In this document: one piece after another, positions 25,423 to 50,980 of the stretch
Numbering within the stretch: the first letter of the stretch is position 1
Layout: each line of letters begins with the position of its first letter
Program-made: the position numbers and the translations under genes
The notes under the pieces: generated by a model
Databases searched by the model: none
What the model saw: the letters and a program-made list of their open reading frames with translations, nothing else
Told to the model about the DNA's origin: nothing
DNA from: Spirosoma rigui
GTDB lineage: Bacteria > Bacteroidota > Bacteroidia > Cytophagales > Spirosomataceae
Length of the DNA: 64,000 nucleotides
Direction of reading: 5' to 3'
NCBI RefSeq assembly: GCF_002067135.1
Contig: NZ_CP020105.1
Span: forward strand, 930,001-994,000

Positions 25423-25515
25423 ATCACTAAATAAGCCAAAGAGTCGGAAGATGGCCGGTGCGAGCAAAACCCATTCGCACCGGCCATCTTCCGACTCTTC
25501 GGCTTATTTAGTGAT
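25423..25515. terminator. 41-base inverted repeat between convergent genes
   Basis: Arms 25423-25463 and 25475-25515 pair at 40 of 41 positions with an 11-base loop. Each arm lies 10 bases from the stop codon of the gene on its side (AraC and the TonB_C protein). The stem is far longer than a normal terminator and has no strong T tract. Confidence 0.85.
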
Positions 25516-30191: not shown

Positions 30192-30206
30192 TTTAGCCCA
30201 AAAGGT

Positions 30207-30280
30207 ATGATGTGTACTGTATGATGTATAATTTTGCCCGTACTTGATGCATTAAAAATCCATCATACAATACACATCAT
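30207..30280 (+). promoter_or_regulatory. Inverted repeat with -7 box in its loop, upstream of psd
   Basis: Arms of 20 bases (30207-30226 and 30261-30280) pair at 19 of 20 positions, the exception being a possible G-U pair. The 34-base loop starts with TAATTTTG (30229-30236), an exact TAnnTTTG box. The right arm ends 11 bases before the psd ATG. Confidence 0.75.
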
Positions 30281-30291
30281 AAATTTTTGCT

Positions 30292-37765: not shown

Positions 37766-37814
37766 CGTCACAAAAAAGGCGCTCTCTGTTACAGAGAGCG
37801 CCTTTTTTGTGACG
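37766..37814. terminator. Two-way terminator
   Basis: Perfect 24-base arms (37766-37789 and 37791-37814) with a single-base loop. Each strand ends in a run of six T within the stem, so it can stop the SGNH transcript and the convergent one. Confidence 0.92.
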
Positions 37815-42282: not shown

Positions 42283-42345
42283 TTACCTACAGAAAGGCCC
42301 GGCCCGCTTGACACTCTCAAGCGGGCCGGGCCTTTCTGTAGGTAA
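42283..42345. terminator. Perfect 29-base inverted repeat between uvrA and susD
   Basis: Arms 42283-42311 and 42317-42345 are exact reverse complements with a 5-base loop. It lies 5 bases after the uvrA stop and 16 bases before the convergent SusD stop and probably terminates both. Confidence 0.9.
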
Positions 42346-49802: not shown

Positions 49803-49918
49803 GGTGTACCGATAATACGCAGGGCACGACCCCGGGGCTGGTACCGATGACTAGGATTGTGGACTGGCCTACCCGATTCTCAATGGAGACAGATCATTGA
49901 TGAGTCAGTAAAGCAATT

Positions 49919-49983
49919 CAGTAAAACATAGATAAGGATCTTTATGTATTTTTGACGTAAAGATCCTTATCTATGTTTTACTG
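49919..49983 (+). promoter_or_regulatory. Perfect 26-base inverted repeat with promoter box in the loop
   Basis: Arms 49919-49944 and 49958-49983 are exact reverse complements (core cagtaaaacatagataagg). The 13-base loop is filled by TATTTTTG (49947-49954), an exact -7 box. The right arm ends 7 bases before the amidohydrolase ATG at 49991. Confidence 0.8.
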
Positions 49984-49990
49984 ATTGCCC

Positions 49991-50980
49991 ATGAAAAATA
50001 CATTACTACTACTGGCCTGCCTGATCGGCCTGACAACCAGCATACTGGCCCAGACTACGACTTCGAAGCGCCCGCTACCCATCATTGATGTGCATGTGCA
50101 CGCCATGAAGGTAAACCCCAGCTTTGCCATTGAAATGTGTCCCTGGTTTCTTCGCGATATGCCCGGCGGAGACCCTAACCAGCAGATGCGCGCCTTCCTG
50201 AATACGGAATGCGCCGAGCCGCTTCAGCCAGCTAAATCCGATCAGGAAATGCAGACGGCGGTGCTGAACACAATGGAGCGACTCAACATGACCATCGTGG
50301 CCTTTGGTGACCCGACAATTCTGCGTAAGTGGAAGAAAGCGGCACCCGGTCGTGTCATTGCGGGGATCGGTGTCAGCTCGCCTAAAGAGATGACGGTCCA
50401 GGCCTTCACCGATTCGCTCTCGTCGGGGTTTTACCAGGTAATGGGCGAGGTAGCGCCCCAGTATCAGGGCCTGTCGCCCAGTGATATGAGTTTGGATGGC
50501 TACTTTGCCGCGGCCGAAAAGCTGAATATACCCGTCGGCATTCACATGGGAACGGGCGGCAATGGCATGGCGAACCTGACGCAGGCTACCTACCGCGCTT
50601 CATTGGGAAGGCCTTTTCTGCTGGAAGATATGCTGGCCCGTCACCCGAAGCTGAAGGTATGGGTAATGCACGCGGGTTACCCCATGATCGATGAAATGAT
50701 TGCCCTGATGGGTGCCAATGCATATGTCTATGTCGATCTGGCGGGTTTCATCTGGAGCTATCCCCAGGCCGAAATTCACGCCTATATAAAGCGACTGGTT
50801 CAGGCAGGGTTTGGCAAACGGATTCTGTACGGAACAGATCTGCTGGTGTGGCCCAAGCTCATTGAAACGTCCCTGAGCGTGATCGAAAACGCCGACTACC
50901 TGTCCTTCGACCAGAAACGTGATATCCTGTTCAACAATGCGGTCCGGTTCTTCCGGCTGGACGCCAGTAAGTTCAAATAA
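49991..50980 (+). CDS. Secreted amidohydrolase family 2 protein
   Basis: 329-residue metal hydrolase with a signal peptide (MKNTLLLLACLIGLTTSILAQ). The amidohydrolase fold shows the metal-site HxH in IIDVHVHAM, the second His in VGIHMGTGG, another in VWVMHAGYP and the Asp in ILYGTDLLVWP. Such TIM-barrel enzymes hydrolyse or decarboxylate small rings and lactones; here it is exported, so it acts outside the cytosol. Substrate unknown. The leader is a promoter-in-loop inverted repeat; a second hairpin follows the stop. Confidence 0.85.
   Translation: MKNTLLLLACLIGLTTSILAQTTTSKRPLPIIDVHVHAMKVNPSFAIEMCPWFLRDMPGGDPNQQMRAFLNTECAEPLQPAKSDQEMQTAVLNTMERLNMTIVAFGDPTILRKWKKAAPGRVIAGIGVSSPKEMTVQAFTDSLSSGFYQVMGEVAPQYQGLSPSDMSLDGYFAAAEKLNIPVGIHMGTGGNGMANLTQATYRASLGRPFLLEDMLARHPKLKVWVMHAGYPMIDEMIALMGANAYVYVDLAGFIWSYPQAEIHAYIKRLVQAGFGKRILYGTDLLVWPKLIETSLSVIENADYLSFDQKRDILFNNAVRFFRLDASKFK

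Follow-up and report, generated by a model that had tools for sequence, protein, structure and literature searches.

Geometry of the inverted repeat

What role does a long, perfect inverted repeat play around the promoter of a secreted amidohydrolase gene in Spirosoma rigui? The repeat lies in a 64,000-nucleotide stretch of the genome, which is referred to as the window. The original prediction described a perfect 26-base inverted repeat with a full −7 box in its 13-base loop, closing just before the start of the gene. A letter check bore out these points. Positions 49919–49944 and 49958–49983 match exactly, and the perfect repeat exceeds the noted length by one base (27 bp, 49918–49944 and 49958–49984, 13-base loop). 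The box, TATTTTTG, occupies 49947–49954 of the plus strand at the dyad centre, and six bases separate the end of the 27-bp right arm from the ATG at 49991. The gene itself (49991–50980, plus strand) encodes 329 residues from this ATG and belongs to the Amidohydro_2 family (PF04909). Upstream on the same strand, a barstar-like gene (PF01337, 49551–49802) ends about 116 bases 5′ of the repeat.

An exact 27-bp repeat is far beyond chance, which is excluded at such an arm length. With one T·G pair allowed, the arms extend to 30 bp (49918–49947 and 49955–49984, plus strand) and enclose a 7-base loop, ATTTTTG. The inner 8 bp of the left arm (CTTTATGT) and of the right arm (ACGTAAAG) are the left and right half-sites of a conserved core, and the outer 22 bp of the left arm are lineage-specific. 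Folding of the repeat as RNA lengthens the stem by GCAAT/ATTGC with one bulge; the stem ends two to six bases before the ATG. The fold has a z score of −7.7 in a 261-nt context, and the reverse strand alone has −13.0. No further copies of the long arms were found in the genome. A search for an Rfam identity gave only sub-threshold matches, mostly to microRNA-precursor families because the stem is perfect, and was set aside.

The −7 box as a probable promoter element

The published promoter consensus of Bacteroidota has TAnnTTTG at −7 (PMC7366714), and the amidohydrolase box, which starts 44 bases before the ATG, matches it. In S. rigui, TAnnTTTG occurs 85 times in 446 upstream regions, compared with 41 times for its reverse complement and 25–28 times for the pattern reversed or complemented. 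The occurrences cluster 20–80 bases before ATGs, with TTG in excess at a spacing of 19–21. TAnnTTTG is hence a credible promoter element in this species. The −33 element (TTG/TTTG) is a point against a promoter-operator at the repeat, as no TTG is present at a spacing of 12–28 from the amidohydrolase box. This element is weak genome-wide in S. rigui, and it is not identifiable in Flavobacterium johnsoniae either (PMC7366714). By the −7 rule, which puts the start about 7 bases past the box, transcription of the amidohydrolase gene would begin near 49961 on the plus strand, inside the right arm. The mRNA would then carry the outer 22 bp of the right arm in its 5′ leader and, having the right arm only, would form no hairpin.

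A conserved 23-bp core in relatives

The centre of the repeat is a 23-bp core, CTTTATGTATTTTTGACGTAAAG (49940–49962, plus strand), with the consensus CTTTRYGT-AnTTTTR-ACRYAAAG. Of 36 Spirosoma genomes, 19 contain the core with at most one mismatch, and 21 of the 36 have the amidohydrolase; a backward control pattern gave 0 matches at the same threshold. About half of the amidohydrolase orthologues have the same box upstream within a short dyad, CTTTATGTACTTTTGACATAAAG or a variant of it. The orthologues in Arsenicibacter and Telluribacter are preceded by a related form with TACTTTTA, which in Telluribacter has an altered left arm. In the nearest relative (G010, 96% protein identity), the box is kept and the dyad is degraded, which counts against an operator. 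The orthologue in Spirosoma profusum (L011) is preceded by a different long hairpin (TTTTGTCATCCTGACCAGCGGGAAGGATCTTA...) that has no −7 box.

The motif search yielded 38 distinct dyad sites. The full core is present at 34, which come from Spirosoma and one related genus. S. rigui has one core site, the amidohydrolase promoter. The dyads precede four gene families: the amidohydrolase, an esterase of about 292 aa (PF00756), a second esterase of about 390 aa, some members of which carry a CBM48 domain, and a GH106 rhamnosidase. Both esterase kinds downstream of the dyad belong to PF00756, and in Spirosoma utsteinense the amidohydrolase adjoins the second one. At 36 of the 38 sites an ORF lies downstream in the TTTT(G/A) direction, a count that took in only ORFs downstream on the motif’s own strand. 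Since orthologous sites are non-independent, such simple counts overstate the evidence, and more independent support comes from the occurrence before four gene families and from the tandem copies described below. The distance from dyad to start codon varies from 6 to 220 bases across sites, and the arms elsewhere are about 8 bp. Upstream of the esterase dyads (L048–L074), a conserved A-rich motif (roughly TAAAAnnTnACAAAAA) is located 29–45 bp or so before the core; it is weak or absent in the window. This motif is possibly an UP-type element or a site for a second regulator.

Half-sites of a predicted NrtR/AraR-type operator

The core arms are invariant save for two R/Y positions per half-site, and comparison across the dyad sites revealed no excess of base pairing at the variable arm positions. 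Standard pairs make up 0.68 at positions 4/18 and 0.89 at positions 5/17, against 0.74 and 0.81 expected if the positions were independent. As the R/Y positions combine regardless of base pairing, protein half-sites are favoured over a hairpin, and for lack of covariation we rejected an RNA hairpin as the reading of the core. Moreover, five sites have a second dyad 26–27 bp upstream, in which the arms are kept and the −7 centre is not. The function of the arms, attributable to a protein, is therefore separable from that of the centre, the −7 box.

We then inspected which regulator might recognise these half-sites. Operators of the NrtR/AraR type are semipalindromes of about 21 bp with the pattern RYGT-N7-ACRY, and the S. 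rigui half-sites follow it (ATGT-ATTTTTG-ACGT, 49944–49958). The genomes of seven relatives carry a gene for a NUDIX + NrtR_WHD protein divergent from the esterase gene, with the dyad in between. The best PDB match of this dyad-linked protein is AraR of Bacteroides thetaiotaomicron (5bs6, 1.3e-30). No NrtR-family gene was seen beside the amidohydrolase gene, and S. rigui has four NrtR-family paralogues, at genome positions 308568, 4630809, 5480536, and 5741840, none of which exceeds 55% identity to the dyad-linked protein. Near the start of one S. rigui NrtR-family gene (L285, 1384–1442), two RYGT-N7-ACRY dyads are 36 bp apart, the first of which, TTGTGCGTACATTTGACGCAATA, has TAnnTTTG in its centre.

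The BtAraR operators (BT0354, an NrtR-family regulator) offer a close comparison. The operator in the crystal contains GTGT-TACTTTT-ACAC, the sites are in tandem with 3 bp between them, and L-arabinose releases the protein (PMC4666351). The Spirosoma dyads have the same half-site geometry, a T-rich asymmetric centre like TACTTTT, tandem copies spaced about 3 bp apart, and a candidate regulator with Nudix-like plus winged-helix domains; BtAraR targets are genes for plant-polysaccharide degradation, which is a further likeness. They differ from the BtAraR sites in the CTTT/AAAG flanks, in a centre that is a full −7 box of fixed orientation, in their targets (esterases, amidohydrolase, and rhamnosidase) and, in S. 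rigui, in the extension of the dyad to 30-bp arms.

A PadR operator, with the pattern ATGT-N8-ACAT, was also considered for the core. PadR was dropped in view of the NrtR-family genes beside the dyads and the exact N7 spacing. Given the half-site pattern, the tandem dyads, the divergent NUDIX + NrtR_WHD genes, the BtAraR geometry, and the L285 dyad, the core is best read as a predicted NrtR-type operator that overlies the TAnnTTTG −7 box. A dimeric regulator with a Nudix-like sensor domain and a winged helix would sit on 49940–49962 and block RNA polymerase, repression being suggested by BtAraR and by the position of the site on the box. By analogy with L-arabinose and BtAraR, the regulator would be released by a sugar or related effector, whereupon transcription would proceed from near 49961. 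A non-NrtR regulator, or an activator instead of a repressor, might bind the core instead, and the conserved A-tract at −34 to −29 of the core in other promoters could belong to an activated promoter. The divergent NrtR-family genes with the dyad between, together with the matching BtAraR geometry, make this alternative rather unlikely.

The predicted regulon in Spirosoma, with its operator over the −7 box, would comprise a secreted amidohydrolase that is highly conserved, a rhamnosidase, and secreted esterases of two kinds. No description of it was found in the literature searched.

Origin of the outer arms

Palindromy beyond the core extends over 22 bp in S. rigui, 11 bp in the relative G033, 5 bp in G012, and 0–3 bp elsewhere. 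The S. rigui and G033 repeats align without gaps. They share palindromy at 11 outer pairs, of which eight are unchanged and three are changed on both sides; one extra double change, farther out and past the G033 stem, may be chance. Compensatory changes between the arms, which the original prediction had named as a check, are thus seen in G033, but most relatives have the short dyad only. Free variation of the arms, which it had named as contrary evidence, is seen at the core R/Y positions and, in most species, in the outer arms, but not in the outer arms of G033. The two flanks differ in how far they can be followed. The right flank is identical to that of G033 at 16 of 29 positions and can be aligned to that of G010 down to the ATG. 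In the left flank past 12 bp, only four of 17 positions are identical between S. rigui and G033, which is the chance level.

Changes on both sides, an alignable right flank, and an unalignable distal left flank fit copying by template switching, a process documented to make and maintain perfect stems (PMC8794818). These patterns are suggestive of outer arms that arose when the right flank was copied into the left one, possibly repeatedly, with the switch itself resting on two or three species and the direction of copying on few bases. Replication would have switched template at the short dyad and left a near-perfect palindrome, perhaps kept perfect by further switching. Template-switch hairpins and quasipalindrome correction described elsewhere (PMC8794818, PMC7202029) likewise show perfect arms round a short dyad that was there before, and relatives differ by double changes of several bases; those hairpins are in an RNA gene, whereas the S. 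rigui repeat is on a promoter-operator.

Could the long arms instead have been selected? They might make the gene deaf to read-through or its promoter sensitive to supercoiling, with complementarity kept by co-ordinated change. We regard selection of the palindrome, as opposed to a merely mutational origin, as rather improbable, and the two roles proposed for the arms lack conservation. In the first, transcripts from upstream would fold a hairpin of about 35 bp that closes the start region, while transcripts from the loop promoter, lacking the left arm, would be translated freely. Such a read-through filter would suit the very stable fold, the stem end so close to the ATG, and the barstar-like gene upstream on the same strand, and the T4 genes e, soc, and 49 do use inhibitory RNA structures in their start regions (PMC3014915). 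The T4 gene e hairpin also resembles the S. rigui repeat in being a very stable potential RNA hairpin that abuts the start codon and would be missing from a transcript starting inside. The S. rigui hairpin, however, is not conserved in relatives at this place; orthologues vary widely in arm length and in distance to the ATG, and G033 has 17 bases between stem and ATG and its upstream gene on the opposite strand. A filter of this kind is accordingly improbable. In the second role, supercoiling would extrude a cruciform that exposes or disrupts the −7 box, giving a supercoiling-sensitive promoter. The long A+T-rich arms, the 7-base loop, and the complementarity kept between S. rigui and G033 would favour it, but with arm length not conserved, short dyads in most orthologues, and no covariation at the core R/Y positions, a cruciform seems highly improbable.

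We consider it probable that a dimeric NrtR/AraR-family regulator has its operator at the centre of the repeat, over the amidohydrolase −7 box, and that the outer 22 bp most likely came from a template switch. These outer arms would be dispensable for regulator action. The locus is a compact natural example of a dyad for protein binding from which a long perfect palindrome appears to have grown; in such a case, "compensatory changes" between arms may reflect template switching instead of RNA structure.

Long inverted repeats elsewhere in S. rigui

We then surveyed long inverted repeats with a simple ORF caller in 864 kb of the 5.83-Mb S. rigui genome, and found 46 with arms of at least 16 bp, the amidohydrolase repeat included. 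Convergent genes flank 22 of them and tandem genes 20, and nearly all are close to gene 3′ ends. The script put the amidohydrolase repeat under "divergent", as the ORF cut-off excluded the 87-aa barstar-like gene. The prevalence of long perfect hairpins near gene 3′ ends raises the question of whether this repeat is mainly a terminator of the upstream gene that the next promoter overlaps by chance. An intrinsic terminator has a stem and a T run close behind a stop codon; here the repeat lies about 116 bases past the barstar stop, no T run follows either arm, and a conserved regulon motif occupies the centre, which leaves a terminator very unlikely.

The amidohydrolase repeat alone among the 46 has TAnnTTTG in the loop, and it stands out by this box and by its position directly before a start codon. 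It had been put forward as the cleanest example of a promoter-in-loop pattern. At this repeat the −7 box is well supported by its position, by the genome-wide enrichment, and by the fixed orientation in the 34 homologous core sites, but support for hairpin-loop promoters as a general class is marginal. Loops contain 5 of 80 boxes, compared with 2.5% of background positions (p = 0.048), and the window itself accounts for two of these five. The second case in the window is an imperfect 30-bp inverted repeat at 30200–30287, between glutamate dehydrogenase-like and phosphatidylserine decarboxylase-like genes, with TATAATTTTG in the loop and a right arm that ends four bases before the ATG. Near-perfect long hairpins at 25423–25515, 42283–42345, and 37766–37814 have convergent genes on either side, as is typical of most gene ends in S. 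rigui.
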